From a virus, in the IMG/VR virus record IMGVR_UViG_3300006793_000276, positions 1 through 24,305 of that record: a stretch of DNA of 24,305 nucleotides; one strand, written 5' to 3'. Position 1 is the first letter of the stretch. The number at the start of each line of letters is the position of its first letter. The notes under the pieces were generated by a model, which saw nothing but the letters and a program-made list of their open reading frames with translations, was not told the DNA's origin and ran no database searches. A program made the translations under genes and the position numbers. Positions 2,051 through 24,234 of the stretch are shown here, piece by piece.

Positions 2051-2248
2051 ATGAGCAAAGAAGAAATAAAAACCGCCGAAGAGCAATTCGAGCACGAATT
2101 ATCCAATGTATTTGTCCGCTGGTGGGAGGAATCCGACCTGGATGAACTCGAAATGTCTCAAATTGCAATAGAAGTAGTAGAACGCTTTTGCGACACCACA
2201 GTCGATTTTGAATCAGACATCGACCTGAGCGACATGGATGATGAGTAA
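2051..2248 (+). CDS. Small highly acidic protein, unknown function
   Basis: 65 residues, starting 4 nt after the preceding stop; no clear Shine-Dalgarno site. About 23 residues are Asp or Glu, concentrated in an amphipathic N-terminal helix (residues 3-20) and an Asp/Glu-rich tail. VFVRWWEESDLDELEMSQIA gives it a small hydrophobic core, and the single Cys is in ERFCDTT. I do not recognise a family. Acidic proteins of this size in phage late operons may be chaperones or DNA mimics, but nothing here shows that. It is supported as a gene by tight packing: the next gene begins inside its last codons (11-nt overlap). Confidence 0.65.
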   Translation: MSKEEIKTAEEQFEHELSNVFVRWWEESDLDELEMSQIAIEVVERFCDTTVDFESDIDLSDMDDE

Positions 2249-2597
2249 GCTTAAAACATTCACACGAAGTCTGGTAAACTTACCGCTAGCACCGGTAAAT
2301 ATGTATCGAAGAAGCCAGGTTCCTCGGAAATTAAAAGAAACTGCATTTGGAACTAATGCTTCAATTAAATACCCAGTTGAACCTAACTACGTAGAGTTGT
2401 GGAAATCTCCCAAGTCTTATCAATACGAAGTAGAATCTACAGTAGATCTACGGCCGCCACCACCGGTGCCACCACCACCTCCTCCTCCACCTACGTCTAG
2501 ATCTGGTGGAAGTTACGCCCTTTCTACTTTCCCTAAAAATTACAAACCCGGAATGAGCAGACGCACAGGCACGGGAATCCATCCTTTACACAGATAG
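2238..2597 (+). CDS. Small basic protein with polyproline tract
   Basis: 119 residues. The start overlaps the preceding gene by 11 nt; ATG 2238 and ATG 2241 are both possible. The first 35 residues are basic (TRSLVNLPLAPVNMYRRSQV and following). Residues 73-85 form a proline run, PPPPV followed by eight prolines, encoded by mixed CCA/CCT/CCG codons, and the tail is Gly/Ser/Arg-rich. No fold is recognised. The proline run would stiffen the chain and would slow ribosomes without elongation factor P. It could be a minor virion or linker protein; function unknown. Confidence 0.65.
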   Translation: MMSKLKTFTRSLVNLPLAPVNMYRRSQVPRKLKETAFGTNASIKYPVEPNYVELWKSPKSYQYEVESTVDLRPPPPVPPPPPPPPTSRSGGSYALSTFPKNYKPGMSRRTGTGIHPLHR

Positions 2598-2599
2598 TT

Positions 2600-2785
2600 A
2601 TGGACAAAATAACCGCTTATAACTCCGATATGATGGAGAAGGATATGAAAATCCAAGACCTAAAGGTGGTTATCGATACTGCACAGGCTGCGCTAAGGCG
2701 CGCCCAAGCCGTAATTAAATCCGAGGAAGATAAAAAACATGTGTTTAACCCAAGCGCCAAGTGGGTACTTAACTATAAACTGTGA
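2600..2785 (+). CDS. Short helical protein, unknown function
   Basis: 61 residues, starting 2 nt after the previous stop. Residues 10-48 (DMMEKDMKIQDLKVVIDTAQ and the following AALRRAQAVIKSEEDK) have regular hydrophobic spacing typical of a single long helix or short coiled coil. The C-terminus, AKWVLNYKL, is more hydrophobic. It has no signal peptide and no recognised family. Its start lacks a clear ribosome site, and ATGs at codons 11 and 12 are alternatives. Exact packing between neighbours, including the GTGA overlap with the next gene, supports it as real. Confidence 0.6.
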   Translation: MDKITAYNSDMMEKDMKIQDLKVVIDTAQAALRRAQAVIKSEEDKKHVFNPSAKWVLNYKL

Positions 2786-3585
2786 AGTCTGTATCCGTAA
2801 TGGCAACAGGGTCAGCTCTTCGCGAGGTTACCTTTCTCATATACTCGATCAGAATGTTATACAACTGCCCGATTTACGTGGTTTGTGACGACTATGTATA
2901 CACCAAGCTTAAAAGGATGGGTTTTTTATGGTTAAATCTAAAAGCCAGCGCAAACCCCGATGATTTAAAGAAAGCCGCCCACGAAACCGAATCCGTCAAA
3001 AGCCACAACGATTTCCACTCTGCGGGGGCAATTTGGACTAAAATAGGTGCTATGGAGTGGGCATTGGAGGAAGAAGGCGAAACTTTGTTTTTAGACGCGG
3101 ATATTGTCTTAAACAAACCAATTCACGAAGATATTCTTACTGATGTCGATGGAATGATATCCCCCCATTACCACACGGGGGATACTCTTATTGATAATCA
3201 GACATACGGAGCATTTAACGCCGGGTATGTGTTTGCCAGGCATTGTGATTTTGCGAAGGTTTGGAAAGAAATATACCTAACCCGATCAGCATTCTACGAG
3301 CAGCAGGGCATGATTTGGTTTTTCGAGCATTTCGACATGGGGGTCTTTAACAAGAACCACAATATTGGATTTTGGAGATTTGCTAAAAAATGGAAGAAGG
3401 GAACTCTTAGATTAGACGATTGGGGTATAGATTGGCCTAAAGCCAAATCTTTTCATTTTCACGCCTTTCCCGAAACTTATTCAAAAGCCAACAAAGGCTT
3501 AACCAGGGGTTATAATTTGCTCAAAGAAGAAATGGTTGAGCGTCTTAACCCAGAACTAAAAAAGATATATAATGATCTACTCTAA
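2782..3585 (+). CDS. Glycosyltransferase, nucleotide-sugar type with DxD motif
   Basis: 267 residues from a GTG start that overlaps the previous TGA (GTGA). The GTG is preferred to ATG 2800 because the first beta strand (KSVSVMATG) of a Rossmann-like GT-A fold would otherwise be lost. PIYVVCDD follows as the next strand. Residues 102-108 (TLFLDADIV, Asp105-Ala-Asp107) are the metal and nucleotide-sugar binding DxD site, and GAFNAGYVFAR matches the 'FNaGvhh' acceptor-side motif of GT8/GT77-like enzymes. KSFHFHAFPETY near the C-terminus is a plausible metal-binding histidine segment. No transmembrane helix is seen, so it is likely cytoplasmic, moving a sugar from a UDP- or GDP-sugar to an unknown acceptor. 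It is the first of a three-gene cassette with a sulfotransferase and another glycosyltransferase. Confidence 0.75.
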   Translation: MKSVSVMATGSALREVTFLIYSIRMLYNCPIYVVCDDYVYTKLKRMGFLWLNLKASANPDDLKKAAHETESVKSHNDFHSAGAIWTKIGAMEWALEEEGETLFLDADIVLNKPIHEDILTDVDGMISPHYHTGDTLIDNQTYGAFNAGYVFARHCDFAKVWKEIYLTRSAFYEQQGMIWFFEHFDMGVFNKNHNIGFWRFAKKWKKGTLRLDDWGIDWPKAKSFHFHAFPETYSKANKGLTRGYNLLKEEMVERLNPELKKIYNDLL

Positions 3586-4207
3586 AGAAGGCAACTGGGC
3601 ATTCGTCCATGTCCCAAAGAACGCTGGTACATCTTTCGTTAAACCTTTACGGAACCCCAAAATAAGAAAGGCGTTGGGCGTCGAGTTTCTAGAAAAAGGT
3701 CACTCTCTTCACCACAACAAGTGGAGCTGGTGGTCTCAGTTCGACGAGGTCAAGTCCTTGACCCCCGTGGCTATATGCCGAAACCCTTGGAGTAGGGCGT
3801 TGTCCATGTATCTATACAATATCAAGAATGCCGTTGCCAACATAGAGGAAGAGTGGGCAAGGCTCGATCACGCTCGCCTGTCGTTAGATGGCTTCAAAAG
3901 GTCATGGATGCCCGGCGGGTTTTTCGTAGACAAGCACGGCATAGACTTTGAGTATGACAAGAACACGGGGAGAGCGTGGGCGCAGTCAGATAATCAATGT
4001 TCGTGGCTAGATGGCTCATCAAAGAAAAAATGGTTTCGCCTTGAGGATGGATTAAATGATTTCTGCAAATTCACAAAACTACCCAAACCAGAAGTTTTAA
4101 ACGCTACTGTAAAAGTTAATTACCGAGACTATTATGATGACGAACTAGTGGAAAGAATAGGTACTCTTTTCGCTAAAGATGCCAAGCTAGGGGGGTACTC
4201 ATTCTAA
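3572..4207 (+). CDS. PAPS-dependent sulfotransferase (Sulfotransfer_2-like)
   Basis: 211 residues. The start overlaps the upstream gene by 14 nt with no clear ribosome site, suggesting coupled translation. FVHVPKNAGTSF (residues 11-22) is the 5'-phosphosulfate-binding loop of PAPS sulfotransferases. Arg70 to Ser78 in CRNPWSRALSMY is the 3'-phosphate-binding motif, with Arg and Ser spaced 8 apart as in the family. His44 in KGHSLHH is a candidate catalytic base. The C-terminal YYDDELVERIGTLFAKDAKL and following GGYSF match the usual tail of carbohydrate sulfotransferases. Expected reaction: transfer of sulfate from PAPS to a sugar hydroxyl, with PAPS supplied by the host because no PAPS synthesis gene is present here. 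Bracketing by two glycosyltransferases implies a sulfated glycan. The protein is shorter than typical Golgi relatives because it lacks a membrane anchor. Confidence 0.85.
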   Translation: MIYSKEGNWAFVHVPKNAGTSFVKPLRNPKIRKALGVEFLEKGHSLHHNKWSWWSQFDEVKSLTPVAICRNPWSRALSMYLYNIKNAVANIEEEWARLDHARLSLDGFKRSWMPGGFFVDKHGIDFEYDKNTGRAWAQSDNQCSWLDGSSKKKWFRLEDGLNDFCKFTKLPKPEVLNATVKVNYRDYYDDELVERIGTLFAKDAKLGGYSF

Positions 4208-5001
4208 TGAAAGTGCTAATATATCAAGTTTTCGTAACAGGCAGTCTAAAAGTGAAACACGACGCACTTATCGAAGAGTCAACCAGTAGTTTAAAAACAT
4301 ACTCAGATCATTACGGCATCGACTACACTTTTGAGTCCAAACCCACCTTTACCCCAGAGCAATTACCAAAAGATGCCGATAAGAGAATGCGGTTCTACTG
4401 GGCGATGGATTTATGCAAGCCCGAGCTTAGGCATTATGATTACATCGTACACTTTGATGCCGACATCATAATGCAGGAGGGTGCCCCTGATATCCGAAAA
4501 GAGTTAAAGGGCGATTTTATGGCAAACCGCGATCCGATTGATTACTTAGGTGAGTGGAACCGTCCTATGGCGTCGTTAAGAAGAGCTTTTGTCTTCCGTA
4601 ATGTCTCCGATCACTTTGGGTACCCTTGGTATAATCACTTCAATTCAGGCGTTTGGGCTTCTTCTCCAAAAGCAAGAAAATTGATTTGGGAAAATTGGCA
4701 AAAGGATGCCTTTAAATCTTACGAGGAAAAAGCCCCAAAGAGCTTTCCTTTTAAATTGGGCAACCCATATGGGGGAGACCAAAACATCCTAAACAACATC
4801 GTCCATAATTCCGACTTAGACTTTGTCCCTCTTGATTGGAAATGGAACGCATTAAGTGACACGCTTAAGAATTTAGATAAGGCATACGCCATCCACTACG
4901 GCGCAAAAGTTGGTAAGTTTCTTTACAACAACCCCGAATATCGGGACAAGACCCCCCTTAGCAAAGAAGCAATTAAGTTAATGGAGGAACAGATGCAATG
5001 A
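4207..5001 (+). CDS. Glycosyltransferase, GT8-like
   Basis: 264 residues; the start overlaps the previous stop by one base (TAATG), and an AGGGGGG run lies upstream at about 4189-4195. The N-terminus (KVLIYQVFVTG) is a beta strand. HFDADIIM places the DxD site at Asp84 and Asp86, FNSGVW at 145-150 matches the conserved substrate loop, GGDQNILNN (189-197) carries the second acidic site (Asp191), and IHYGAKVGKF (229-238) resembles the C-terminal histidine motif HxGxxKPW of GT8 retaining enzymes. It is therefore a better match to GT8 than the enzyme at 2782, and the two are not close copies. Donor and acceptor are unknown. The last bases overlap the large terminase start by 4 nt, so the sugar cassette and packaging gene share one transcript. 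Confidence 0.8.
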   Translation: MKVLIYQVFVTGSLKVKHDALIEESTSSLKTYSDHYGIDYTFESKPTFTPEQLPKDADKRMRFYWAMDLCKPELRHYDYIVHFDADIIMQEGAPDIRKELKGDFMANRDPIDYLGEWNRPMASLRRAFVFRNVSDHFGYPWYNHFNSGVWASSPKARKLIWENWQKDAFKSYEEKAPKSFPFKLGNPYGGDQNILNNIVHNSDLDFVPLDWKWNALSDTLKNLDKAYAIHYGAKVGKFLYNNPEYRDKTPLSKEAIKLMEEQMQ

Positions 5002-6746
5002 CAGACAAAGAACAGCAGTTAGCCAATTTAATCCGAATCGACCCCGAGGTCTGGTTCTCAACATTTGCCGTCATTAAGGATAAGAGGGGCAAAGATATTA
5101 AACCTAAAGCGAATACGCTACAAAAGCGTATGTTCGACCATTATAGAAAATGCCAAGTAGAAAAAAAGCCGTGCAAGATGATCATTCTAAAACCCCGTCA
5201 GAAGGGGGCGAGCACATGCGCTCAAGCTCTGACATACCACCACATGAGGAAGCACGAGAATCTGGCGGGCTCTCTGATGGGGGATATTGCGGGGACGAGC
5301 GACAAAGTCTTCGAGATCTATCGGAGATACGCCGAGAACGACGCCTTTCCGTGGGACGATACCGGAACAAATCTCGAGGATGGAGGCAATCTGGCAGACT
5401 TAATGAAACTAAGGTCCAAAAGTGCGTACGGAAAGGAAACCGCCGGATCGAAAAACGCAGGTCGAAGCGGAACTATCCAGGTCGGTAATATGACTGAGGT
5501 CGCTTTCTGGCCTAATACGGGACAAAAAGACCCCGCTCTTGGTTATCTACAGTCGCTGTACGACGGAGACAATGTTTCACTAGTTGTTGCCGACTCTACA
5601 CCGAATGGCCCAGCCGGTTGGTTTTATAACACATGGGTGCAGGACAATGAATGGGCTAAGATATTTGCCGCTTGGTGGGAGTTCGAAGATTCCGAAATAC
5701 CTTTCAAATCTGAAGTTGAACTTCAAGATTTCAAAGACACTATGACCGATGACGAGAAGTCAGAAGTCGAGCGTTTCGACGTAAACTGGGAGCAAATGCA
5801 TTGGAGAAGGAGAACTCTTCAGGACAAATGTAATGGCGATGTTTCTAAGTTCCGCCAGGAGTATCCATCGGATCCCGAAGAATGTTTCTTAATGTCGTCC
5901 CGCCCTCGTTTCCAGATTGAAGTACTAAAGGAAATGGCAGATGCGGCTCCTAAACAAGATAAAACCGTAGGTAGTCTAAGCTTACAGCCAAATAAGTCGG
6001 TATCTTATAATTTAGACAGGGCAGGGTCTTGGGTTGTTTACGAGCAACCTGAAGAAGATTCGAAGTATGTCATAGGCGTTGACACTTGTACTGGTGAAGA
6101 TCAGCAAATGCAAGGTTTAGCAGCCGACCCTGACTATCATAGCGTGCAAGTTTGGAAAGCTCCTTACGAAGATTGGCACGGAGACTGGCACGTAGCGAGG
6201 TTAGTTGCCCATCACCACTCTCGGGTAGAGATCGGAGTTCTCGCCGAGGAGATTGTCGCGGCAGCAACCTGGTACGGAAAGGCTTTCGTAGTCCCCGAAA
6301 TCAACAATAGTGGGTTAGCGATAATTAAATATCTACTAGAAGCGGGTTGCCATGTCTATCAACGAAGGAAAGTTAACAATTCAACAGGGATGGTCGAAAA
6401 GTTCTTTGGGTGGCAAACAGACAAAATAACAAGAAAAACATTAATCGACCATTTAGCTTCCGAAATCATGGATAGGAACATCGATATACCAGACGAAGGG
6501 GTGCTAAAGGAGTTAAAAACATTTATTATAAATGAAAAAGGAAAACCCGAAGCGGCACCAGGGCATCACGACGACCATGTCATGGCAACAGCGCTAGCCG
6601 TGTACAATATCGATTCCGCTACTACATTTAGAAAGCACAAGAAAAGAAAAATTACGAACAAGATGCTTAGGAAAAACCCAGGGCTTCTATGCCCAGACGG
6701 TTTTATGAGGGTTCCATTATCGGAATACAAGCGGTTGAGGAGGTAA
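4998..6746 (+). CDS. terL: Terminase large subunit (packaging ATPase and nuclease)
   Basis: 582 residues, usual for the family. ATG at 4998 has GGAGG at 4983-4987 and overlaps the upstream stop by 4 nt. The ATPase half has the phage-type Walker A LKPRQKGAST (64-73), Walker B ending NMTEVAFW with Glu167 as catalytic acid, and the coupling motif ADSTPNG (198-204). EYPSDPEECFL (288-298) is the typical linker signature. The RNase H-like nuclease half shows VIGVDTCTGED (Asp362), FVVPEINNSG (Glu434) and HHDDHVMATALAVYN (Asp525 or Asp526), so both domains look intact. It powers DNA translocation through the portal and cuts the concatemer. Codons from about 5190 to 5500 are distinctly GC-richer (about 55% in three sampled 60-base lines) than the end of the gene (32% in one line). 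Confidence 0.95.
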   Translation: MTDKEQQLANLIRIDPEVWFSTFAVIKDKRGKDIKPKANTLQKRMFDHYRKCQVEKKPCKMIILKPRQKGASTCAQALTYHHMRKHENLAGSLMGDIAGTSDKVFEIYRRYAENDAFPWDDTGTNLEDGGNLADLMKLRSKSAYGKETAGSKNAGRSGTIQVGNMTEVAFWPNTGQKDPALGYLQSLYDGDNVSLVVADSTPNGPAGWFYNTWVQDNEWAKIFAAWWEFEDSEIPFKSEVELQDFKDTMTDDEKSEVERFDVNWEQMHWRRRTLQDKCNGDVSKFRQEYPSDPEECFLMSSRPRFQIEVLKEMADAAPKQDKTVGSLSLQPNKSVSYNLDRAGSWVVYEQPEEDSKYVIGVDTCTGEDQQMQGLAADPDYHSVQVWKAPYEDWHGDWHVARLVAHHHSRVEIGVLAEEIVAAATWYGKAFVVPEINNSGLAIIKYLLEAGCHVYQRRKVNNSTGMVEKFFGWQTDKITRKTLIDHLASEIMDRNIDIPDEGVLKELKTFIINEKGKPEAAPGHHDDHVMATALAVYNIDSATTFRKHKKRKITNKMLRKNPGLLCPDGFMRVPLSEYKRLRR

Positions 6747-6769: not shown

Positions 6770-9592
6770 ATGGCAGATAAAGAAGCAAAAGTTGGCGACT
6801 GGGCTCTTAAGGTAATTGATGGCAAAGTTTATAAGTATAAAATAACAAGTGGTGGTGGGGGTGGGTTTGTACCGTCGCCAGAAGCTTTAGTAACTTCAAA
6901 GTGGTTAAGAGAAAATAGAGATAAAATTGCGTATTATAACCGCGATCTGGCTCAATACCCCGAAATAATGAAGTTGCATGTTGCCAGCGAGGCAAAAGAT
7001 TCCGGGATGACTGAATCGGTCGACGACGCTATAGAAGAAATTTACGTAGATACCCCTCTCGAAGAGGGTATGAATGAGCCTTTTGACCCGAATAAGGCGA
7101 CTATAGATAACCCAACCCCCGCACCCGAAAACAAACCCAAACCCGCACCCGCACCCGAAAACAAACCCGGCGTAAAACCCACCGAGGTCAAACCCAAACC
7201 CGTCACTATGGACCGACCTTCAAGACCCGGGCCTCAAGATGAAATTGATAAAATATCAAAAGGTGTCGGCAATCTTCCCATTAGTAAACCTCGTCAGGGT
7301 AACCCCGGCAGCTCCATACCCGATATGGCTGGAGCTAGAGATCGTGCCGCAATTGAACATTGGCGCGGTAAAAAACTTAAAGAAGCAATCGAAGACGACG
7401 AGCAGAGCAGAAGAAAAAATAAGATCATCGGTGCGTGGGCCGACGGAAAAGCTGGCTACGGCTGGTGGGACAACGCAACCGACGCAGAGAGAGCAAAAGC
7501 TTCTGCCGCTTTTACAAGAGATTCCCAAGCCGGGAAATACCACCCAAATAATGTCAAAAATGACCCGAACAACCCAACCTACCGGGCTCCCGCAGATATA
7601 GTTCAAGAAATTGACAGAGTAAACGGCGGGCCTTCGAAAAGAGCGGATGCCCAAGTTATCCGAGAACTTAAAAAGAATGTAGTCAAGGGTAATGATGTAG
7701 TTAAAACTGATGGGTTCGACCCAGTAGCTTTTAAAAATACCGACGAGTATAGAGAAATGCTTAAGCAGTATTCTTTAGAAAACCCAGGAGGCGAAACAGT
7801 GGAAGAAGGGACAATGGGCCCTTACGCCGATTTTAACAGACCCGCCGCCGCAAAAATTAGACAAGAGCGATTCGATCCTTCTAAGATGTCGGACGGTTTT
7901 GGCGCAGATAGAATAAAAAAAGAAGAAATGAAGCCATGGCTTCAGAATTTAGTAGACCCGCCAGCTCCCGAAACACCAAGCGGTCCTTACATCGGTGCGG
8001 AAAATACACCTAAAGGCCAGCCATTAGACAGAGAAACCGATTACGCCGACAGCATAGAGCAGTCACCTCCCCGTATTCAAGAACTCCCTCCCCAGGATCC
8101 CTTTGAAGAGCCCCCGCCCGGCAGTGGCTTTAACGGAGAAGGTATTACAGGCAGAACAGGCCCAGCCCGCGGCGGGTTAGTCGATGGCGAAGACACTTCT
8201 AACGATAAAGGCATGTACATCGACGGCGAAGACACTGCTAATGATGAGGGTTTTTACTACGACAAAGGCAGAACAGGCCCACCTGAGCAACCCGCTCCTT
8301 CAATGGAAGAGCCCGCTCCAGCTCCCGTAGATGAGGTTACCGAAAGGTATAAAACTAATGACCCCAATGCTTTTTCAGTAGAAGAAAGCCGCGGACCAGG
8401 TTCGGTGGCACCAACACCCGCTCCCGCACCCGCTCCCGCAGATGAGGTTACCGAAAGGTATGAAACTAACGACCCCAATGCTTTTTCAGTAGAAGAAAGC
8501 CGCGGACCGGGTTCAGTATCGCCAACACCAGAACCAAAACCCGAGCCTCAATCAGGCTCAGGTCAAAGTGGTAATTTCTCACTGGACACAATCGACCAAC
8601 TCCCAGTGCCACCGCCCGTATCTCCCACCGATCGCAAATACCCTGATGGTTTAGAGAACTCTCCCGTATTTAACCCCCCTAGTCCTCCAACTCGTCAGCA
8701 AGATTTAGAAACGGTTCAAAATATTACACACAGGGAGACTCCAAAAGAGCCCGCTCCAGCTCCGGCTCCGGCTCCGGCTCCAGCCCCAGCCCCGGCCCCG
8801 GCCCCGGCCCCGGCCCCTGCCTCTATGGAAGAGCCCGCTCCAGCTAGAGTTCCTTTTCAACCCGCACCGGTAGAGAGGTCTAGTAGTTCTGCTGCCAGCA
8901 ACGCTAGGCCTATGACTCAGGCCGAAATGTACTTTAATGCTATTAAAGAGAACGCGTTAGCAGCGGGAAGAACTATAGAAGACGCCCGCAGAGATTTTCA
9001 ATTAAAGTGGCAGCAAGCTTCCAAAATGCATCCCGCGGAAAGAGATAATCACGTTAATCAATATGTGTTATCTACATCCAAAAGGGCGACTCAACCTAAC
9101 CCTCTTAGTGGTAATAGAGCCGAAATAGACGCATATAACGAACAAGAAAGACTTTCGGGTATGGGTTGGAAGGATAGAATGCAAGCCCAAGGTTTAGGTG
9201 AAGAGGATATGATAAGAAACCGTGTTAACGACGACATACTAGAATCAACCAAGGGTGCTGGCCCTCGCTTTTTCAGTAACCCTCGGTACGGCAATGCGCT
9301 TAATGCTCAACACGCTTATCAAGATTGGCGTAAAGGTTTAAACCCAGGCCAAACCCAAACGCATGAAAAGTTTCTGTACCCCGAAGGAGTCCCATCTGTA
9401 GGCGATATAATGGGTGCCAAAAAACAAGAAATATTAAACAACGACATGCGCAACCCGGCCCCTCAATTCCCCGCCCCTCAAATGGGCCCCGGAGGTTCTC
9501 ACACTGATGTAGCCATGTCTCAACTAGATAAACTACCAAAAAGAGAGCAGGCCAGAAGATTAGGGCTCAACCACCTTACCAACTCATTCTAA
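6770..9592 (+). CDS. Large disordered Pro/Ala-rich repeat protein, unknown
   Basis: 940 residues from ATG 6770, with TAAGG 7 nt upstream. The first ~80 residues look folded (GDWALKVIDGKVYKYKI, then a five-glycine stretch), and the last ~220 (from MTQAEMYFNAIKENALAAGR) are helical and charged. Between them lies a long low-complexity region rich in Pro, Ala, Glu, Gly and Asp, with GEDT(S/A)ND repeats, a 37-residue duplication and an 11-unit Ala-Pro tract. No enzyme motif, signal peptide or membrane helix is visible. It lies 23 nt after the large terminase and 6 nt before the giant protein, so it is probably a virion or assembly protein working with one of them: a disordered linker, scaffold or ejected partner. 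The family is not recognised. Confidence 0.8.
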   Translation: MADKEAKVGDWALKVIDGKVYKYKITSGGGGGFVPSPEALVTSKWLRENRDKIAYYNRDLAQYPEIMKLHVASEAKDSGMTESVDDAIEEIYVDTPLEEGMNEPFDPNKATIDNPTPAPENKPKPAPAPENKPGVKPTEVKPKPVTMDRPSRPGPQDEIDKISKGVGNLPISKPRQGNPGSSIPDMAGARDRAAIEHWRGKKLKEAIEDDEQSRRKNKIIGAWADGKAGYGWWDNATDAERAKASAAFTRDSQAGKYHPNNVKNDPNNPTYRAPADIVQEIDRVNGGPSKRADAQVIRELKKNVVKGNDVVKTDGFDPVAFKNTDEYREMLKQYSLENPGGETVEEGTMGPYADFNRPAAAKIRQERFDPSKMSDGFGADRIKKEEMKPWLQNLVDPPAPETPSGPYIGAENTPKGQPLDRETDYADSIEQSPPRIQELPPQDPFEEPPPGSGFNGEGITGRTGPARGGLVDGEDTSNDKGMYIDGEDTANDEGFYYDKGRTGPPEQPAPSMEEPAPAPVDEVTERYKTNDPNAFSVEESRGPGSVAPTPAPAPAPADEVTERYETNDPNAFSVEESRGPGSVSPTPEPKPEPQSGSGQSGNFSLDTIDQLPVPPPVSPTDRKYPDGLENSPVFNPPSPPTRQQDLETVQNITHRETPKEPAPAPAPAPAPAPAPAPAPAPAPASMEEPAPARVPFQPAPVERSSSSAASNARPMTQAEMYFNAIKENALAAGRTIEDARRDFQLKWQQASKMHPAERDNHVNQYVLSTSKRATQPNPLSGNRAEIDAYNEQERLSGMGWKDRMQAQGLGEEDMIRNRVNDDILESTKGAGPRFFSNPRYGNALNAQHAYQDWRKGLNPGQTQTHEKFLYPEGVPSVGDIMGAKKQEILNNDMRNPAPQFPAPQMGPGGSHTDVAMSQLDKLPKREQARRLGLNHLTNSF
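8183..8260 (+). repeat. 39-bp in-frame tandem repeat (GEDT unit)
   Basis: Two adjacent 13-residue units, DGEDTSNDKGMYI and DGEDTANDEGFYY, are encoded at 8183-8221 and 8222-8260. Synonymous and nonsynonymous differences have accumulated, so the duplication is not recent. The units are acidic and tyrosine-bearing. A related GRTGP motif flanks the block on both sides (near 8150 and 8270), so the duplicated segment may once have been longer. Confidence 0.7.
8330..8551 (+). repeat. 111-bp in-frame tandem duplication
   Basis: Two adjacent 37-residue copies start at Asp521 (8330-8440) and Asp558 (8441-8551) of the 940-residue protein. Both begin DEVTERY(K/E)TNDPNAFSV and continue EESRGPGSV, differing mainly in their proline-rich ends (Ala-Pro versus Glu/Lys-Pro). 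The DNA is nearly identical over the first ~80 bases, so the copies are recent or kept alike by recombination. The length is a multiple of three and preserves the frame. Confidence 0.85.
8753..8818 (+). repeat. Hexanucleotide Ala-Pro codon repeat, 11 units
   Basis: Eleven consecutive Ala-Pro codon pairs. The first five use GCT CCA/CCG and the last six use GCC CCA/CCG/CCT, so two homogenised sub-blocks sit side by side: the mark of replication slippage or unequal recombination rather than coding selection alone. Copy changes would lengthen or shorten the linker without breaking the frame. The tract is followed by SMEEPAPA, which also occurs upstream near 8300. Confidence 0.85.
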
Positions 9593-9598
9593 ATTAAT

Positions 9599-12500
9599 AT
9601 GGGTCTTCTCGATGATTTAGATCTTGGAAGAGAGGCGTATTCAAAAAAACGTCCTCTCAAACTAGAGGGGTTCGAAAGGCCAGTACCAAAACCGGAACCA
9701 ACCCAACGACCCGCCAATTGGACCCCCGAGTTGGCTATGGAAGAAGTAAGATCAAAAAGATCAACTTCAGGCCAAACTCCCGCGTGGGACCCACCCGCGG
9801 AAGAGCCTTCTTTACAGGAAACCGACCCTAACCTTGCTCAGGCTTATAAGGATATTAATACTTTTAAAAAAGATATATCCGCGTTATCAAGCGACGTAAG
9901 TAATTATAAAGAAATAGCGGGCACTAAGACAAACGCTCTTAATGATTTTTATGAAAACACCGTCGCTCCTTTTTGGCAGGAACAGTTTAGCGAAGGATTC
10001 CTAGAAACTCCCGAACTAGACCTAAAGAAACCCGAATCTATTGACGGGTTTTTTAAAGACATAGACTCCCGGTATGACGGTTTTCAAAAAAGAGTAGACG
10101 AAGGGGATACTTCTTGGTTTGGAGAAGACGAGCAATTAGGTCGCGCTTCTCGTATGCTGAAAGGTAAAAGAAAATACGACCTTATTAAGCAAAAGCACGC
10201 AAGAATGCTTAAGGACTACCATCAGTCCCAAAATGCTTTTAATAGTGCGGAAGCCCGTAAAAAAGCAATGAAGGAAGCTCTTATGAGTCTCCCCGAAAAT
10301 GCAAGAAGGGCGGCAGGTACTTGGAAAGAAGAAAACCCGGATAAAACTCTTACCCCGTCCCAGATAAACTCTTTGCTTGATAAACAGAAATTTGAAAAGC
10401 CTCAGTACAGTCTTACCGGCGATTTAATAAACCCCGACAAAGTTGACCCCAGGTTAAATCTTGATGAAGGCGATTACTACTCCAAAAAAGATCAGGATAG
10501 GCAGGGCAAAAGATTAGGTGCGGTAGAAAAGTACGGACTAAGTGGGCTTCAAAAAGATCTAAAAGAATTAGATACCGCCACTAAGCTTAAAAAACACGGA
10601 ATGATGTATTCCGTTTTAGGTGAGATTGCTAATCGTTCTATTTACATAAGTGCTGCTGAAAAGGAAGCAATTAACTTAGACCGAATTAAAAAAGCCGGGT
10701 TTGGTTCTTATAAAGGAACCGATATTAACGAAGCTATTGAAAATCTCGGCGGAGAAGATCGTATAATTGCGGCTTCTTTAGTCGAAAATGTTGGAAAGGC
10801 TCATGTCGCTTTAGAAAGGGCAAAAGTATTTCACGCCGCAAATGTAAAACAAAAAGGAGCAGAAGAAGCAAAACGAGAAATAGAGCTAGCCGAAAAGAAC
10901 TTTAGTGCCGCTTTTAACGCAGCAATACAGGGTGGATTTGGGGAGGAAATAGAAAAAAGAGGGAGGTCAAATAGTTGGTACGGCAATTTGTATAACGCCT
11001 ACCGAGCTGGTGATTTACTCGAAGACGCAAGTGATTTTACTTTAAAACTTGCCGGGTATAGTGAGTTTACTCAAACCGACGCCAAAAAATTAATAGACAT
11101 CATGACCGAGATGCAGAATCTCGAGACATCTGAAACCTATAAATCGTATAAGCAATCTTCTTCCGATAATTTACTAGACGCGTTTGGTAATATATTTAAG
11201 CACGGTCTTGCAATACCCGAAATGGTTACTGAAACTTTGACCGGTTTCTTTAACACATATTTTACAGAAGCTCCACGAACTCTAGCGATTACAACGGGAA
11301 CGGGGGCTTTGGCAGGTACCGTAATAACCCCGGGAGCTGGTACTTTAGCAGGAGCTGGAACGGGGGCCGCTTGGGGTTTAAGACTAAATGCCGGTGTTTC
11401 TTCATTTGTAATGGAGTATGTCGGGGAGTTTCTTTCCGAAATGGAAAAAGCTGGCGTCGATTGGCACAACCCTAACGTGTTTATGGCGGCTTTCAACAAC
11501 CCCACATTAATGGCGGAAGTTAGAGAGAAGGCTACTAAAAAAGCGGGAGGTGTTGCTTTTTTTGATATTATTGCCGCCGGTATAGCGGGTAAAACGATGA
11601 GGTTAGTAAAAAACCCATCGTCGTTGAAAAAACTACCAAATGGAGTAAAAGCATTTAGGCAAGAGTTAGACGCCGGAATCCAAGTCAGCTCAGCACGCCA
11701 ATCACTCGCCATGGGTGCAGAGCTCGCCGTACAAGGTGGCTTAGGTGGTACAGGTGAAGCGGTTGGTCAACTTCTTACTTTAGACCCAGGCGAAGAAATA
11801 GACTGGGATGCAATTGCGGCCGAAATGGGTATCGAAGCTCTCGGGCCGGGAGGTTGGGGTTTTGCAACAAACTATGCCCTTTCTAAATTCAGAGGGGGTT
11901 ACGCACTCGAAGATCTCACGGGTACAGAAGCTAATATTTTAAACAAAGAACAAACCGCCGACGGGTATGTAGAGCAAGTAGACCAGGCGGGTTTTCGTTA
12001 CGAAAGGAGGAGGTTTAATACAGCTCAAGATTATCTTAATTATGTAGTCGAACAGACTGGTATGGATCTTAATTCTCCTACCGGTTTCCTCGTAAGCAAA
12101 CTTGTAGGGTTTGCCCAGGCTTCAGGTAAAATTGGAAACCTCGGAGTTGTGGTTGCAGATAGGACTCCTTTCTCCGGTTCAACTACCCGTGGTGCTTATA
12201 ACAACGGTACAATATTTCTTAACAAAAAAGCCTTAGCCGGCAGGGAAGATAGTACTCCTTTCGTACTTCTTCACGAAGGTGGTCACTATATCCAAGATAT
12301 GTTCTTCACACCCGAAATGGTGTCGGACATGTACGGCAAGTATCACGGAGACGACGACGCAAAGAAACTATCATGGGCTCAGTACAAGCTAGGTAGGCAA
12401 GTACTTAGCCTCGAAGATCTTTCAACTAGTGAGCTTAATACCGTAAACAGTACCTTTGACACTACTTCAGATTTAGTTAAGCACGCCGAGTGGTTCACCT

Positions 12501-15500
12501 CCCAAGTAGGAGCAGCTCTTGCAATTGAGAGTGGTTTAGCCGGAGGTACAAAGGTAGACTCAAATGTCAAAAAAGCCGTTAGGGCTATGATGAAGTACAT
12601 CACTGGTGACGAAAGCGTTGAGCAGTTTTTCCCACCCTCACCCGAGTCTGATGCTGACGGAGCCGTTAGATTAGCGCTACTTGCGCAACTCGGTTTTGAT
12701 CCAAATACTTTACAAAATAACAGAGCCGCATTTGTCGCTGAAGATGGGTCACAGGCCGCTGGTACGACGGTGAATCCGTTTGAAGTGAACTTAGCTAATA
12801 TGGCTAATTGGGATCAGAATACTAGAGATGTGTGGGCTAGGATTTTGGGTTACAAAAACTGGAAGAGTTTACCTAATAAATTTAAAAGAGGTGGGGCGGT
12901 TAGGAGAGATAAAACTCTTGCCGGTGGTGGTGACCCTACAGCAACCGTCGACCTTTCTGATCCCGAAGTTCAACAAAAACTTTATAAAGGATCTAACATC
13001 TCTAAACCCGTAGCTACCGAGACTCAAGAAGGCGGAGGCAACCTAAAGAAAGTAACAACGCTATCTCCCGAGAAAAGTAAGACCGGAGGTAAAGTTGGAG
13101 CGGCGGCAAGAACCGCGTTGTCCAAAGGAGCGGCGGAAACTGATGTCGAAGAACTGGGCAGTAAAACTATAAAAACTAGCGCCGGTGAGCCGCTCAACAT
13201 AATTAAAAAAGCCGGAGATGGCGGTCCAATTGATTTAAAAGGAGTACCTAAAGAAAGAAGCCGAGTAGAGAGCAGAATAAAAGAGATCAAAGACACCATT
13301 GCGGAACTCAAAACTCCTAATAAGGTTTGGGATTCTAGTGAAAAAACCGGTCCTAGATGGGTAGAACAGCCCCGTTTTGAAACCGCCGAAGACCAGAAAA
13401 AGGCAATAGCTCCTCTTGAAAACGAGCTAAAAGGATTAGAAGCTAGATCTAAAAATATCAAAGAAGTACCCGTTTCAAAAGGAGGTAAGCCAATCCCCGA
13501 AGGACTTGGAACTGGGCCTAAGGACGAGTTCTCAATAGCAAAGCAAAAGGTAGATAACATAATCGAAAAAGCCGGCGAAGCCACTAAGCCTAAGCCTGCT
13601 AAAGTAGAAGTCGTTAAACCTAAACCCGTTCCTACTAAGAACAAGTCGGGTAAGCCTAACATCGCGAGAGACCCCATCGCTAAAAAGGATAATCTCGATG
13701 AAGTTAAACCTACCGTAAGTAAGCAAGAAAAAGAAGCGGACAAACCTAAGGAAGTAGCTAAATCAAAAGTTACTCCTAAAAAACTTTTTGAAGACCCTAA
13801 GCCGATAAAGGAGTCTACTTTAAAAAAGCTAGAAGCAAAAAGTGAGAAAAGAAAAGAACAGGCTGTCGAAAGTAAAAAAGACAGAGATGCACCTGATTCA
13901 GTAAAAGATGTTCAAGATAGCATTTCCGAACTTTCTAGGCTTAATAATAAGGAGATGGCGGGCAGGATTTCCAAAGCGAAAAAAAGTATAATAAAAAGAA
14001 AAACGGAGCAAATCCAGTCTCTTACAAAAGATGATCTCATGAATATGAAGATCAATGGGAAGAGCCGTAAACTTTCCGAAGTTAAACGAAGTTTGTTAAA
14101 AAAAGTATCAGTAGACCCATTAGACATACTAAGGGAGCTGTTGTTTCCAGGACTAGACCCGGATTCTAATATATTCGAAGCTTTAGGTTTCTCCGAATTT
14201 GAAGATATTTTCGATGGTCTGGAAGCGAAAACATTGACCCCCGATCAAATAAAGAAATTAAATTCTAAAATAGAAAATTATTTCGATAACAATTTACCCG
14301 AGCTATCTGAACAAGCACCAGTTGTAGAAGGAGTTTTAGTCCCTTACGGAGTTCACGATGTTAGTATACCTGGTGCTGCCGCATTAAATGGAAAGACTGA
14401 GAAGAGTGTTCAAATTTCATTTACGAATAACTTAGGTGAAGAAGGCGACATTATTAATGTAAAAGGTAAGCGTCAAAAAGAAGGAGGTATTTGGTATGGC
14501 GATAAAGAATTTACCCCCGTTAAAGGAAGATATGGATGGGAGATCTTAGGAAAGAAAGAACTTCTTAAAGACGGGAAAGTATACGCTTATAAATATTCTT
14601 TAAAGGCAGTCACCGAAGACCAAGCTCGTCGCGATTTACCCTGGCACGAAGTACCAGCGTCAGCTATCCCAGGGAGACTTAACGATTTTAGTGTAGCGGA
14701 CAATAGGGGAGGTAAGGTTTCCCGAGAAAATTTCAGAGATCCATTGTCTCCAATTACCCGTCAATATTTATCAATAGGTCAAGCTCTTCGCGGGAAATCA
14801 AAGACAGCTTTAACCGCAATGTCCGGCGACTGGAACAACAAAGCCAAAGAAGGTATACCCGCTAGGAATGCTTATCGTTTATTCCGAGCTATGTCTAAGG
14901 GTGATGTTGATTACGGCCTACTTGAGACATTGTACGGAAAGGACACTGATACTTCTAAAGTTAGCTACGATGATGCAAGAATGATTGGTACGATGGTGCT
15001 TGGGGCGTTGGCTCCGGCAAGGACTACTTCCAAGAGAAGAGTCGCATCGATGCAGAAGAATTTAAAATCAAACTTCGACCCAGTTGAAGAAAAATTAGAA
15101 AAAGAAAACAAAGCGAGCGGGGGTAGGGCGGAGTCGTACGAGCAAACAACTTTTAAGATAGATGAAGAAGGTAATACTATTAACTTTCTTCGCGGACTTT
15201 ACAGCAGAATACGAGCTGATGAAAAAAGTAGGCAAAAATCAAAAGACGATTTAAGAGCGGCGGACCTTGTCTTGATCGACCTTATGAATGCAGAAGATCA
15301 GTTCGGCATGACTAAAGATCAAATCAGGACGGAGCTTACTACCTTGTTCACCGATCCGAACAATGAATTCTTCGGCTTGGTCGATGTTTTCCGTGCTGGC
15401 ATCGATGTTCAATCCGGAGACGCAACTAAAGTAGCAAAACGCTTTGAAGATGGCCGGCCGGTTATTACACCAACCGAAGACCAAGCAAAAGCTCTTGATA

Positions 15501-18500
15501 AAGATTTTGCGGAAATAGAAGGCCTCGGTAAGTCTATGTCCCCCGATGTAGTAGGGACTGAAAACGAAGGCGGAAGTGGTAAATCTACAATTTCATCTAA
15601 ATCCGTCCGTAAAGAAAAATTCACACCGGATGAGTTTACCGTGGAAGATTCAGACTTGGCCACCCCCAAACCCGAAGAAGGGACTTGGCAGGATTTATTC
15701 ATTAATGGGATTGGCATGGAGGCTAGTTATGATTGGGTTAAACTAATAGCGGAAAAACTTAAAGAGCGCGGTTTAATTCCGAAAGATACCGTTATAGTAA
15801 GCCACCCCGAAATCCGTGAACTTGACGCCTCTCTGTCCAGAGTCGAAGCAGACCAACGCCATGCAAACAGGACTATTCTTACTCCAAGAGTCCTCGCTAA
15901 TATTATAGAAAAAAACGGTATTGATAATTTAATATCTTTACCTGATACCAATAAACAGGGCAGGGTAACCGAAGGCGGCCCGGGTTCTGGGATGTTATTT
16001 TATTCCTCGATACTATCAAAAATGGTTAGCGAGTACGGGAAGATTACTAAGGGTAAAAAAGGTGTTGTTGACGCGGGTATAACCCCAGCCGAGCTTTATA
16101 AAAGAGCCATTGAACTATTCGGAGAGTATAGAGATGGCGGCGCAAGATGGGCCAAGAAACATGACAATGGTTTTGAAGTTTCCTCTAAAGCACCGACTAA
16201 GTTAGGTAAGTCTTTTAGTGCTTTTAACGCAAAGCTTTCAGACGGAAAGTCTATTGAGCACCATTACCAAGTAAATGTAAAAGGCCACGCGAGTATTAAA
16301 GAAGGCAAGGGTAAGCCACCAAAAGACACTAGTATAGACAGTTTTGCCGAGTACAAAAAACTTTGGGAGCAATACGCCGAAGAAAACCCGAAGAAAATAG
16401 AAGCGTTAAGAAAAGCCGCCGAAGGTAAGGTTTTGACGGACATGTTTGCTACAACTGATGTTAATCAAGCAAGAGCGTTGGTCGATATCATAAAACCATC
16501 AAGAGAGCTTACAGATAAAGAGTGGTTTAAATTTGTAGAGCTGTTTGGCGGTCCCGAAGATACGACGATTGATAAAGATTCGAGATATACACAACAAAAA
16601 AGAAACGCCGAAAAACAATTCGCCTTTGCTTATTTTGCTCAGTTTATAAGAAAACGCGTTGCCGAAATGGGGGGTATGGAAGAGAAATTCGGCGATAAGA
16701 TTGCAACCGAAGGGGCTAGTGAAAATGTTGTTGAGAGTAAGCCCGGTGTAGAAGATCTAGACAGCCCCGAATCAAGAAGTGTAGAAGACTTAGGCCCCGC
16801 TGCCGAAGTTGAAAATGTGTCAACCGAAGAAGCGGATGGGGAGTTCATGAGTCAAATTGAGTCTAATGAATTAGCCGATGCAATGATGGATCCTCTCACT
16901 AAAGGGAGCACAAAAAAGAATTGGAAAAAAGCCGGAGTAATTTCAAACTTAGGGCCTCTCTATAAAAATATTCGGAAGTATTTAGATATGTCCGATGCTG
17001 ACATGGCTAAAGATAAGAATTTAGCCAGCTTGCTCAAAAAAGATAAATTCCAATCGGGCTTGCTTAAAAACAAATTTCACAAAGGCACCTTTACCCCTAA
17101 ACAGGTGAGGGACATGGCAAAATCAATACTTAGCCCAGACCAAGTTAATAACGCGGAGTCTGACGGCGAGGCGGCTGCAAAGCTCCAAGCTTTAATTGAT
17201 AGTCGAAAAGAGGGAGTCGAAGACAAGGCCAAGAGTGCAAAGGAAAATAAAGCAAAGCGTGAAAAAGCTAAGGCTCAAGAAAAGAATGAAGCCCTCGACC
17301 CTAAGTACGGCGACGACAGATCAATAACCCTCGGATCCGAGATCACACTCGTTTCAGAAATGCCCGCTTTACTTTCCGAAAGGATGGCAGCTTCTTTCTT
17401 AGCATCCGCAAAAGGTGGGTTTAATTTACTACCTGAGGAGATGCGTTATAAGATTCGCGTTACTATATTTAACCAACACGCTACTCTAGAAGATATAGCG
17501 GTTAAATTACAAAAAGATTTAAACCTTAAGTACGGGACTGAAGCGAGAGACTTCTTCGATATGATGGGGGTCGTCCTACCCACCTACGCAAAGGTAAAGA
17601 TTGCATCAAGAGAATTTAATTCAAGATTCCGTGAGCCAATAGTAGAAGCACTTAAAAAGTACGGCGTTACTGACAGAGTATTCGGTAAGTACGTGCAAGC
17701 ATTAGCAGCCGGTACTTTTAATAGGCACGTAAGAGGACTTCTTATGGAAGCCCAGAGTGATGTGATGTCGAGTATAGCCGATAGGCAGAAGAAAATAAAC
17801 GATCACGAAAGTTCTTTAGGCGCTGAATCGATTACCGATACTACAAAAAAAGAGCTTAAGGAAAGTATTAGTAAATATAAATCCGAAATTAAGCAGCTTG
17901 AAAAAGATTTCGAATCATACAGCTTCACAAACTATCATAATAAAGATGGGGAATTTGCACCTTCTGGTTTCTCAGACAGAGAAGCAGCTTTATTAGTTGA
18001 GAGTTCCAAAAAAGACCCTCAAATGATGAAGCTTCTTAAAGACAAAAATGACATCATGGGTCTGTGGGCTAAGATGAATGCTACAACTATAAAGGTAGCT
18101 CTCGAAACCGGTCAGATAAAACAAGACGAAGCGTTTAAACTAATTACCGCAAAGAGCCGAGCTAACTCAGCCGAAGGTTTGGTTGATGTCGTTTTCAACG
18201 CTCTTGGGTTAGATAAGAAGGACGATCAGTACAAAGAAAACGCTAAAATAATAAGAAAGACTTTTAACTCAGAAAGTTTTAAATATCAGCGAAACGAGGA
18301 AAAGGGGAGCATGCCCGAAGGCTACCATTACTCACCTATGCAAGGGTTTGAGGACAATGAATTCCATTACGAAGAACAGGAATCATTGGAACAACTGGTA
18401 ACCGGTAAAAGTGGCGGTAGCTCTGGTTGGCAGTCTAAAAGAAACAACGATGTTGGTAAAAGGGTCATGGGTCGCCGGACGGGGGTAGATAAACCTAATC

Positions 18501-20847: not shown

Positions 20848-22887
20848 GTGAAGAATACAAATTTAGTACTAAGTCGTGAACAGGAAGAAAAACTCGTGGA
20901 GTACGCACTTGAGCGAGTTGAAAGCTTAAAAGAAGACAACTCCGCGCGTATAAGTAGTGACTTACACTCTTGGTCTGTTTATCAAAATGACCGCAAGGAT
21001 AGGGACGCTATTGACAGTATCTTCGCTCAATCAAATGTCTCCGTTCCTTTAACTAGTTTAGTCGTAGACCATTTTTTAGCTAGAGCTGAAGATGAGATAA
21101 CAGGGACAAGTCCTTATTTCGAATTTAAACCACAAGGTGTTTCCGATACGGTTTCCGCCGAATCTTTTAATAGGTACTTCCATTGGAAATTGGAAGACAA
21201 AGGTAGGATCCGAGAAAGATTAGAAGAAAGTTTTCTTCATATATTCTTACAAAGAGCAGCTATTTTTAAGTCCGTTTACGAAGAGCGTAAATCTGTATGG
21301 TACGATTTAGAAAGAAGCGCTCTGTTTGATAATGAGACTCAAGAGTTTGTAGAACTTCTTGAGCAAGGGCCTGTTATAGAAGGAGACGCACCAATGTTTC
21401 CCGAGGTTAACCCAGAAACCGGCGAAACCGAGACACGACTCGAAGCAGACCCTTCGTTCACCGTAACTCCTGGAAAGCACGAATTTAAACCATACCCCGA
21501 AGGTGTGCCGACCGAGCAAATTAAGTACAAAGGTCCTAGGTCGGTGGTCGTTGATTCGGACAGGTTCTTGGCCCCAAGTTCAGTAGAGCACCTAGAGTAT
21601 GCCGACTTCATTGGCGAGCTTTACGATAAAGATTTAAATTGGTGCCGCGATATATTTTTTGAGCGTGAGTGGTTTTCTTTTTCCGACTACGAAGAGGCTG
21701 TAAAGAAGGACTCTAACCCTAGAACAAAAAGTAAAAAGAACGAAGATTCTAAGGACAGTAAAACTTGGGAAAAAGAAAAGATTCCTATGGTTCCCGTAGT
21801 TGAATGTTGGATTTCAAAAGATATACTAGGAACGGGGCAGCCTCAAGATTTCTGCGTATTTATAGATACTGAAATTAAAAAAGCTATTTTTTACGAGTAC
21901 ACAGCTAAGCTCACCCCCGACAATAAACCACCTTATGTAACCGTAGCGATCGGTAAGATGAATAATAAATGGTGGGGTCCGAGTCTTCCTGAAAAAATAA
22001 GAACATACCAAGAGTACATCGATAAACAGTTTAATAGCGAAAGCTATCGTAACGAGTTGTCCGCTAATCCTATTATAGGTGTAAACCCTCAGGCAGTAGA
22101 AGACGAACCCGAAGATGTCGAGCTCCACGCGGGTAAGTTATTTCAACTTAAAGACCAATACAGCATGGACGATTTTCTTTCGTTCTCGGCTTTACCTAAT
22201 TTAGATAACAAGACCCAGGAGTTAATCGATTTTGTATTCGGCATGGTTCAACTTTGGCTTGGGGTTAGTAATATGGCACAAGGAGATTACCAAGCTTTAT
22301 CGCCCGCTAATACTGCAACGGGAGTTGAGGCAACTTTAAACGAAGCTTCTAAAATAGGGCGAAGGTGGATGCGTAGAATCGTAAGAGGGTTTGAAGAGCA
22401 CCTTGCAAAATTAATAAAAGTTGCAATGGCAACTATGGACGAAGCTGAGGTCTACGAATACATGGAAGGGGATGTGGCCGCTTTTGCGGAGATGACTCCC
22501 GAGATGATTTCGGATCTTGAGATGAATTGTAAGGTCATCCTTTCACAGGACCAAGGACAGCGGGCTATCGAAAAAGCCAACCTTGCTCTTCAGGTTCAGG
22601 AAAGATTTTTACAGCATCCACCCGAAATTCGACCATTCAGCCGCCCAATGTTTAAGCGCATTTTAGACGCCCTTGGTTACGAAAATACCGAAGAACTTTT
22701 ACCAGAAGCCGCACCACCTGACCCTAAAAGCGAAGCTGAGATTATGAAACTCATGGCGGATGCACAGGGCACAGGAGGAGGAGCTGGGCAAGCCCCAGAA
22801 GCGGGTGATCAAATCAACGCACAAGTCCAGGGGATGGGTAACAGCAACCCTCAAGGCGAAAATCAATATCAACAACAGACAGGATAA
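20848..22887 (+). CDS. Portal protein
   Basis: 679 residues, in the range of P22-like portals. The only workable start is GTG 20848, 11 nt after the giant gene's stop, since the next in-frame Met codon lies far inside the protein; no Shine-Dalgarno site precedes it. PLTSLVVDHFLARAEDEITG near residues 72-91 is the conserved early wing helix; KWWGPSLPEKIRTYQEYIDK and the following FNSESYRNELSANPIIGVNP match the stem and clip region, and SPANTATGVEATLNEASKIG with RRWMRRIVRGFEEHL form the long crown-side helices. The C-terminal 60 residues are Gly/Gln/Asn-rich and disordered. The portal dodecamer forms the vertex through which the terminase pumps DNA. Lying after the giant protein instead of directly after the large terminase is unusual. 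Confidence 0.9.
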   Translation: MKNTNLVLSREQEEKLVEYALERVESLKEDNSARISSDLHSWSVYQNDRKDRDAIDSIFAQSNVSVPLTSLVVDHFLARAEDEITGTSPYFEFKPQGVSDTVSAESFNRYFHWKLEDKGRIRERLEESFLHIFLQRAAIFKSVYEERKSVWYDLERSALFDNETQEFVELLEQGPVIEGDAPMFPEVNPETGETETRLEADPSFTVTPGKHEFKPYPEGVPTEQIKYKGPRSVVVDSDRFLAPSSVEHLEYADFIGELYDKDLNWCRDIFFEREWFSFSDYEEAVKKDSNPRTKSKKNEDSKDSKTWEKEKIPMVPVVECWISKDILGTGQPQDFCVFIDTEIKKAIFYEYTAKLTPDNKPPYVTVAIGKMNNKWWGPSLPEKIRTYQEYIDKQFNSESYRNELSANPIIGVNPQAVEDEPEDVELHAGKLFQLKDQYSMDDFLSFSALPNLDNKTQELIDFVFGMVQLWLGVSNMAQGDYQALSPANTATGVEATLNEASKIGRRWMRRIVRGFEEHLAKLIKVAMATMDEAEVYEYMEGDVAAFAEMTPEMISDLEMNCKVILSQDQGQRAIEKANLALQVQERFLQHPPEIRPFSRPMFKRILDALGYENTEELLPEAAPPDPKSEAEIMKLMADAQGTGGGAGQAPEAGDQINAQVQGMGNSNPQGENQYQQQTG

Positions 22888-23099: not shown

Positions 23100-23380
23100 T
23101 GAGCGATATTGTTCTATTCGACAAGCTTTCCGATGTCAAAAGGCTCACTGTTGACGAGGCTTTTACGCATTTGGAGAAAAGGTTTCAAACAGAAAGAGGC
23201 CGTTATCTCTCCAGAATGCTTGACCGCGAAACAAGTCCCGAGGAGACAATTGCTCTCAAGGCCGTCGTTAACGCGTTGGAGACTTTATCGCCGATGGCTC
23301 TCGCGGAAGCAGTCATCAAAATAGAATCGAAGAATCTTAAGAAGCATAGTCCCGAAATGTTTAAGGTTAAAAAGGCATGA
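23099..23380 (+). CDS. Small helical protein between portal and LamG gene
   Basis: 93 residues, mostly helical: LTVDEAFTHLEKRFQTERGR, RETSPEETIALKAVVNALET and PMALAEAVIKIESKNLKKHS form three amphipathic helices, followed by a basic tail. No enzymatic motif is visible. One-base overlap upstream and four-base overlap downstream indicate coupled translation. Short helical proteins next to portal genes can be head-tail connectors or scaffold parts, but no family is recognised here. Confidence 0.7.
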   Translation: MSDIVLFDKLSDVKRLTVDEAFTHLEKRFQTERGRYLSRMLDRETSPEETIALKAVVNALETLSPMALAEAVIKIESKNLKKHSPEMFKVKKA

Positions 23381-24234
23381 GCGCTTATTACAGTAAAAAT
23401 ATAGTGAGTAAGGTTGCCGGAAGACCTGCCCCACTTAAATTTAGCGGCGTACCTCGCGGTTATAAATTGCCCGGAACCCCAGATCCCGTAGATAAGGCGG
23501 GCACTGTTGTAAGTAATGTTGCGCCAACTGTACCACCATGGACGCCGGCCAATATAGCGAAAATATTTTGGTTTGATTCTAGTGATTTAAGCACAATCAC
23601 AAAAGACGCATCCAATTTTGTAAGCCAATGGGCTGACAAGAGTGGAAATGGCAATCATGCCACACAAGCAACATCATCAAGCAAGCCGACTTACACAGTA
23701 TCAGATTCATTATTAAATAATAAATCCTCAATTTCGAGTGCTTCCCAGAATGGTCAGATCGGGCTGGACCTGCCGAGCACTTCTCTTCAGGAGATCTTTG
23801 TGGTTGCTTATTACAAAGATGGCTTAGACACAACATTTGACAATTATAACGCCCTGATCTCTGGTCCGGGAAATGTCGGTCAATACCGAATAATGGGTGA
23901 TAAGGGAAAAAGTAACTGGTGGTCAACGACTAATATATTTAACGACGGTGGAACTTTCAAAAATGGGGCAACCACTTCAAACTTCGCTGTATTACCCATG
24001 CCGGCAACCTTACTCCGCTTTACCAGTTCTGCTGCCAGAAACGAGACAAGAGGAATTCTTTATAATACAAAAAGTTCAGATCGTGGCTGGGTTGGAGGAG
24101 TCGGTGAAATTATTGGTCTTTCTGCAATTTCTTTGACAAGCGACCGTCAAAAAATCGAAGGTTATCTTGCTCATAAGTGGGGACTCGCAGCAAACTTGCC
24201 AAGCGGTCACGCTTATAAAACTAAAGCACCTTAA
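23377..24234 (+). CDS. LamG/concanavalin A-like lectin-fold virion protein
   Basis: 285 residues, overlapping the upstream gene by 4 nt (ATGA). Residues 1-60 are a proline-rich arm, including GTPDPVDKAGTVVSN and VPPWTPANI. From about 65, FWFDSSDLSTI followed by VSQWADKSGNGNHATQ is the usual entry of a LamG/concanavalin A-like beta-sandwich. The end, GEIIGLSAISLTSDRQKIEG with YLAHKWGLAANLPSGHAYK, is the terminal 'KIEGYLAHKWGL...LPxxHxY' signature common to such domains in aquatic bacteria and their phages. These domains bind carbohydrate or decorate capsids and tails. Lying just after the portal, it may be a head decoration or host-adhesion protein. The glycan ligand cannot be predicted. Confidence 0.8.
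   Translation: MSAYYSKNIVSKVAGRPAPLKFSGVPRGYKLPGTPDPVDKAGTVVSNVAPTVPPWTPANIAKIFWFDSSDLSTITKDASNFVSQWADKSGNGNHATQATSSSKPTYTVSDSLLNNKSSISSASQNGQIGLDLPSTSLQEIFVVAYYKDGLDTTFDNYNALISGPGNVGQYRIMGDKGKSNWWSTTNIFNDGGTFKNGATTSNFAVLPMPATLLRFTSSAARNETRGILYNTKSSDRGWVGGVGEIIGLSAISLTSDRQKIEGYLAHKWGLAANLPSGHAYKTKAP

Follow-up and report, generated by a model that had tools for sequence, protein, structure and literature searches.

Phage-encoded glycosyltransferases decorate capsid and tail proteins in the mycobacteriophages Che8, Corndog and Myrna (Freeman et al. 2023, via PMC12363180 and PMC11256854), and this virion glycosylation offers a parallel to the role that we propose below for two enzymes, GT1 and GT2. 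These mycobacteriophage systems differ, however, from the locus described here in that they operate in other hosts and that the available parts of the two articles mention no sulfotransferase; as presented there, the glycosyltransferases of Maravista, unlike our cassette, are also encoded close to the 3' end of the genome instead of amid capsid genes (PMC12363180, PMC11256854). Phage sulfotransferases were known before as well. Those of phrog_3347, Prochlorococcus phage P-SSM7, Ralstonia phage phiRSL1, Pelagibacter phage Mosig and Stenotrophomonas phage DLP_6, and those of giant viruses, resemble the sulfotransferase studied here, ST, in fold and PAPS motifs or in sequence, but pairing with the GT1 family is not known there. 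The original prediction had regarded enzymatic sulfation of a phage particle as new. Since ST matches enzymes annotated in P-SSM7 and phiRSL1, phage sulfotransferases are not new in themselves; as to the particle, we found neither sulfated phage particles nor a GT1-ST cassette described in the open-licence literature, in which phrases for phage- or virus-encoded sulfotransferases gave no match. What is new is the conserved, virion-linked cassette.

The window, that is, the whole 24.3-kb virus record analysed, belongs to a marine bacteriophage and encodes a large terminase, terL (4998..6746, plus strand), which matched phrog_24361 (E 2e-17) and phrog_2 (E 1e-14) in a PHROG search and whose best match among isolate phages was 27% identical. 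A portal protein (20848..22887, plus strand; phrog_1216, E 1e-24) and a 3745-aa protein (9599-20836) are also present, the latter carrying an LPD38 (large polyvalent protein) domain in its C-terminal part and, as seen by eye, a HEGGH motif that may be that of a metalloprotease. At 75-290, 5' of the first gene, two near-identical copies of ~95 bases (TGTCTCAAACAACCTAAGTAGGTTGATGCCGACAGC...) were noticed by eye only. The cassette consists of three plus-strand genes, GT1 (2782..3585, 267 aa, GTG start), ST (3572..4207, 211 aa) and GT2 (4207..5001, 264 aa). GT1 and ST overlap by 14 bp, ST and GT2 by 1 bp (TAATG), and GT2 and terL by 4 bp (ATGA). On the other side, a 61-aa protein (2600..2785, plus strand), also found in the relative L007 (87%) and in Verrucomicrobia phage L140 (59%), overlaps the start of GT1 by 4 bp (GTGA). 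The coordinates and overlaps proposed earlier were all verified, as were the motifs DAD, PKNAGTS, RNPWSRALS and IHYGAKVGKF.

ST, which bears PKNAGTS and RNPWSRALS, is predicted to be a PAPS-dependent sulfotransferase of the PF03567 type acting on a sugar. Pfam matched PF03567 in 13 of 13 ST relatives (best 1e-17), the window ST alone scoring below threshold (E 0.04), and PHROG returned phrog_3347, 'Galactose-3-O-sulfotransferase' (E 3e-5). Residues K16, R70, P72, R75 and S78 were invariant in 13 sequences and correspond to the PAPS 5'-phosphosulfate loop and the 3'-phosphate motif RxPxxRxxS. The top PDB matches of the structure model (pLDDT 84) were all sulfotransferases, led by heparan sulfate 2-O-sulfotransferase (Z 8.8, the next at 8.7); these Z-scores are modest but in agreement with motifs and Pfam. 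The phage enzyme has fold, Pfam family and motifs in common with the heparan sulfate 2-O/6-O-sulfotransferases, from which it differs in its smaller length (211 aa) and in sequence, at about 15% identity. Among viral structure models, ST matched sulfotransferases annotated in P-SSM7, phiRSL1 and giant viruses, and also gp5.1 of Roseobacter phage SIO1.

GT1 contains DAD at residues 105-107, invariant in its relatives, as well as GAFNAG and HFHAFPE. Its structure model, of moderate confidence (pLDDT 66), matched glycogenin and LARGE1 with Z 13.7 and LgtC with Z 13.2 (VIA-align). GT1 thus has the fold and the DxD motif in common with these GT8 enzymes, but is 11-16% identical to them, and neither GT1 nor its L085 homologue gave a match to Pfam GT8. 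Because this match is absent, we name GT1 a GT8-like glycosyltransferase of predicted GT-A fold and do not place it in GT8. GT2 (DAD, FNSGVW, IHYGAKVGK(F)) is a putative GT8-like enzyme by motif; the sole GT2-type match was that of its homologue in L086 to PF01501 (Glyco_transf_8), at E 1.2e-4 and below the curated cut-off. The window GT1 and GT2 had no credible family in Pfam or PHROG, and profile comparison detected no relation between them. PDB sequence searches returned nothing useful from single sequences of GT1, ST and GT2, nor from profiles of GT1 and GT2. GT1 had no match among 50,697 phage records; its homologues were found in >20 phage contigs. The enzyme classes first proposed were upheld in this way, the sulfotransferase by PF03567 and fold, GT1 by its structure model and fold match, and GT2 by its motifs and one homologue with a weak Pfam match.

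We surveyed 78 loci encoding relatives of terL (lineage A). Between a conserved small acidic protein (2051..2248 in the window, plus strand), which forms the left border, and terL, which forms the right one, these phages carry a cargo slot, 3-2915 bp long and different in most of them, which holds small basic proteins, lysozyme and methyltransferases (Methyltransf_24 in two). The trio was present in 3 of 64 fully spanned slots, complete each time, and its only carriers were the contigs L001 and L002, which are identical to the window, together with L007 and a close relative of L007, L076 (record G008). It is therefore dispensable in lineage A, which counts against a role in virion decoration. 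The original prediction had also emphasised the location directly upstream of terL. The 4-bp overlap makes this true, but the position is incidental because it is a hypervariable cargo slot. A sulfotransferase was found in none of the 74 GT1-less loci of the survey, a control that represents one lineage only.

Between the window and L007, identity was 92% for GT1, 52-56% for ST, 67% for GT2 and 88% for terL, with dN/dS values of 0.07, 0.17 and 0.08 for GT1, ST and terL, respectively; synonymous sites were saturated in GT2. Between L086 and L087, dN/dS was 0.09-0.13 across GT1, ST and GT2 (0.13 for GT2 itself). All three can be regarded as genuine, intact genes that overlap one another and evolve under purifying selection. 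The pS between the window and L007 reached 0.72 in ST and 0.82 in GT2 and was lower in GT1 (0.46) and terL (0.51), and the window ST was 59% identical to that of L085, a phage with another terminase (see below), versus 56% to that of its sister L007. An exchange of ST between lineages is suggested, and only suggested, since the tree test did not reject the grouping of window and L007 (p 0.20).

The slot of the window also encodes a Pro-rich protein (2238..2597, plus strand) with the C-terminal tag GTGIHPLHR. The peptide GTG[NIL]HPxxR/K ends 24 ORFs located within the slot 5' of terL or close to it (window 2238-2597; L044:3634-4233, L045, L026, L012, L021, L074 and others), which represent 13 distinct proteins, some unrelated and one a T4-type lysozyme. 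It had no internal occurrence among 9069 ORFs and is conserved as a peptide, because synonymous sites vary. It is possibly a virion-packaging or targeting tag.

Searches with ST and GT1 uncovered a second lineage (lineage B: L083-L091 and L140), whose terL has no detectable relation to that of the window. In these contigs, genes for a scaffold, an SU10-type MCP and two small proteins precede GT1, ST and a variable third gene, which are followed by a decoration protein, a glycine-zipper lipoprotein, a tail protein and an S74 tail fibre. GT1 (47-51%) and ST (46-57%, apart from the 59% obtained for L085 in the comparison above) overlap in the order of the window and were found together in every spanned locus. 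The third gene is GT2 (50-54%), a divergent GT2 (29%, L086/L087) or none (L083-L085); hence GT1 and ST form the core and GT2 is optional. The expectation that the genes travel together was borne out in part, as all-or-none presence of the trio in lineage A and as the GT1-ST pair in lineage B, and did not extend to GT2 throughout. Independent contigs that encode homologues in this order, with matching overlaps, place the trio beyond chance. Two side observations can be added: a GT2 homologue at L110:15564-16934 has a methyltransferase domain fused at its N-terminus, and a small protein resembling the glycine-zipper lipoprotein recurs in GT1 phages with otherwise different genes (L105:9053-9538, L107:18473-18892, L118, L120, L121, L124).

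More distant GT1 relatives, down to 31% identity, also adjoin virion genes. In L118, GT1 overlaps a fibre gene of the Mtd_N/LamG type, and genes for ST, O-methyltransferase and GT25 come next; GT1 comes after collagen-like fibres in L128-L131 and L134, and lies beside a head-tail adaptor in L132/L133. The link to virion genes put forward in the original prediction thus recurs both in a lineage with an unrelated terminase and at these loci, and nothing pointed to an early takeover of metabolism, which it had argued against. In L128, L129, L132, L133 and L122, the GT1 domain is part of 547-648-aa proteins with extra domains, beside fibre or neck genes. Downstream of GT1 there is often a varying assortment of glycan enzymes, among them sulfotransferases other than PF03567 (PF17784 in L119/L120 and L124; PF13469/PF00685 in L127). 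By a hand count of types defined at < about 90% identity, a confident sulfotransferase lies near roughly 11 of 18 GT1 types, and the five most diverged types, beside collagen-like or neck genes, have none nearby. A tally by locus gave 17/23, but several of the loci counted nearly duplicate one another, the case of L125 is weak (Pfam E 0.07), and self-matches are contained because some queries derive from those loci.

We lean towards the view, which we hold to be somewhat better than even, that the trio is a late-expressed virion-decoration module: GT1 would glycosylate a component of the virion, and ST, together with variable partners, would elaborate the product. In its favour stand the enzyme families and folds and the intact motifs; the genes also evolve under purifying selection, keep their order and overlaps, and sit next to virion genes in both lineages, whose terminases are unrelated, as well as at distant GT1 loci. 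The cassette would be co-translated late with the particle genes. GT1, its most conserved member, would prime by attaching a sugar to a capsid, decoration or fibre protein, GT2 would extend this sugar, and ST would sulfate one of the sugar's hydroxyl groups, with PAPS made by the host as donor, yielding an anionic sulfated glycan on the particle. A conserved GT1 beside variable ST and GT2 fits a fixed priming step with variable finishing steps. As for PAPS supply, the host of a related phage, the Verrucomicrobia single-cell genome AG-908-P09, encodes an APS kinase. We conjecture that such a glycan could serve to adsorb to, or to mimic, sulfated polysaccharide on the surface of Verrucomicrobia. 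What we infer are the acceptor, the sequence of the reactions, expression at a late stage, the location of the product on the virion and its purpose; for the first, two proteins had been proposed. The LamG-like virion protein (23377..24234, plus strand) is not a general acceptor, because its gene was not found in the trio-bearing sibling G008, and the Pro/Ala/Ser-rich protein (6770..9592, plus strand), a candidate, is not a specific one, being present in trio-less relatives too. Against virion decoration, a late-gene position is equally expected of any recently inserted cargo.

Genes of other phages, such as the serotype-converting gtr and oac genes, alter the host surface. The cassette might likewise modify a host surface polysaccharide, for lysogenic conversion or superinfection exclusion, its location among late genes being fortuitous. 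The scanned genome collection contained GT1 only in AG-908-P09, on contig 22, within a lineage-B phage. This contig continues into bacterial genes (ketoacyl synthase, histidine biosynthesis, M42 peptidase), so that the phage looks integrated, unless the single-cell assembly is chimeric, and lysogenic conversion stays conceivable. The same genome has 81 sulfatase matches. On its contig 43, the locus L155 combines a Wzt-type ABC ATPase, glycosyltransferases, methyltransferases and at least 5 sulfotransferases (several PF03567, Sulfotransfer_3), which suggests a sulfated host surface polysaccharide and makes such a glycan a plausible substrate. The prophage state, however, comes from one single-cell assembly, a kind in which chimeras occur, the cassette overlaps tightly with late structural genes in two lineages and is fibre-adjacent elsewhere, and among the listed neighbour ORFs we noticed neither a flippase or polymerase nor a Gtr partner anchored in the membrane. 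We regard a function on the host surface as unlikely, but as the foremost and a serious rival to virion decoration.

The host of the window phage is itself likely a member of the Verrucomicrobiota. Lineage A-type terL (45-51%) and portal (38-41%) occur together in two Verrucomicrobiota genomes, once on a 633-kb contig; this search covered Verrucomicrobiota genomes only, and the host call is uncontrolled because a single phylum was covered. In the Verrucomicrobiota genome G237 (L148:4669-7533), a terL of the window family is split by a LAGLIDADG intein, giving 954 aa versus about 580.

Given that the slot differs in almost every relative, the three genes could also be unrelated cargo with separate functions or none. 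We consider this improbable: lineage B keeps their order and overlaps at another genomic position, no partial trio occurs in lineage A, and dN/dS is low. Proteins, small molecules and carbohydrates all serve as substrates of enzymes with the sulfotransferase fold, so that ST might sulfate a virion protein directly, for instance on tyrosine, independently of GT1 and GT2; this we judge very improbable, as heparan-sulfate 2-O/6-O enzymes lead the Z-score list, albeit by small margins only, and sulfotransferases are repeatedly paired with glycosyltransferases. Hypermodification of phage DNA bases by the trio, for which systems combining glycosyltransferases and sulfotransferases, as in our cassette, have been proposed (Iyer et al. 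2013, as cited in PMC10829341) and to which a C5-cytosine-methylase-like gene seen by eye in lineage B might point, is scarcely credible, because the hydroxylating partners, Tet/JBP and thymidylate-synthase-type hydroxymethylase, were found in 0/11 records searched, several of them fragments.

Returning to decoration of the virion, such viruses may coat their particles in sulfated sugars, since the same set adjoins shell and fibre genes in unrelated viruses of marine Verrucomicrobia. In its boldest form, which we put forward tentatively and as rather doubtful, a phage GT8-like family not described before would form the centre of a mobile and modular cassette for glyco-sulfation, which would furnish the particles of tailed phages with sulfated glycans. 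Where the hosts are marine Verrucomicrobia rich in sulfatases, these glycans would imitate sulfated polysaccharides of the host or of algae, and the sulfotransferase and its partners would be swapped like serotype genes. Enzymatically sulfated sugars belong to the surface chemistry of eukaryotic and algal glycans. If the proposal is true, phage particles would carry them too, which has not been demonstrated for phages in the literature searched; this would bear on the adhesion of such phages to hosts and marine gels and on their interplay with sulfatase-rich hosts, and GT1 would provide a sequence marker for finding them.
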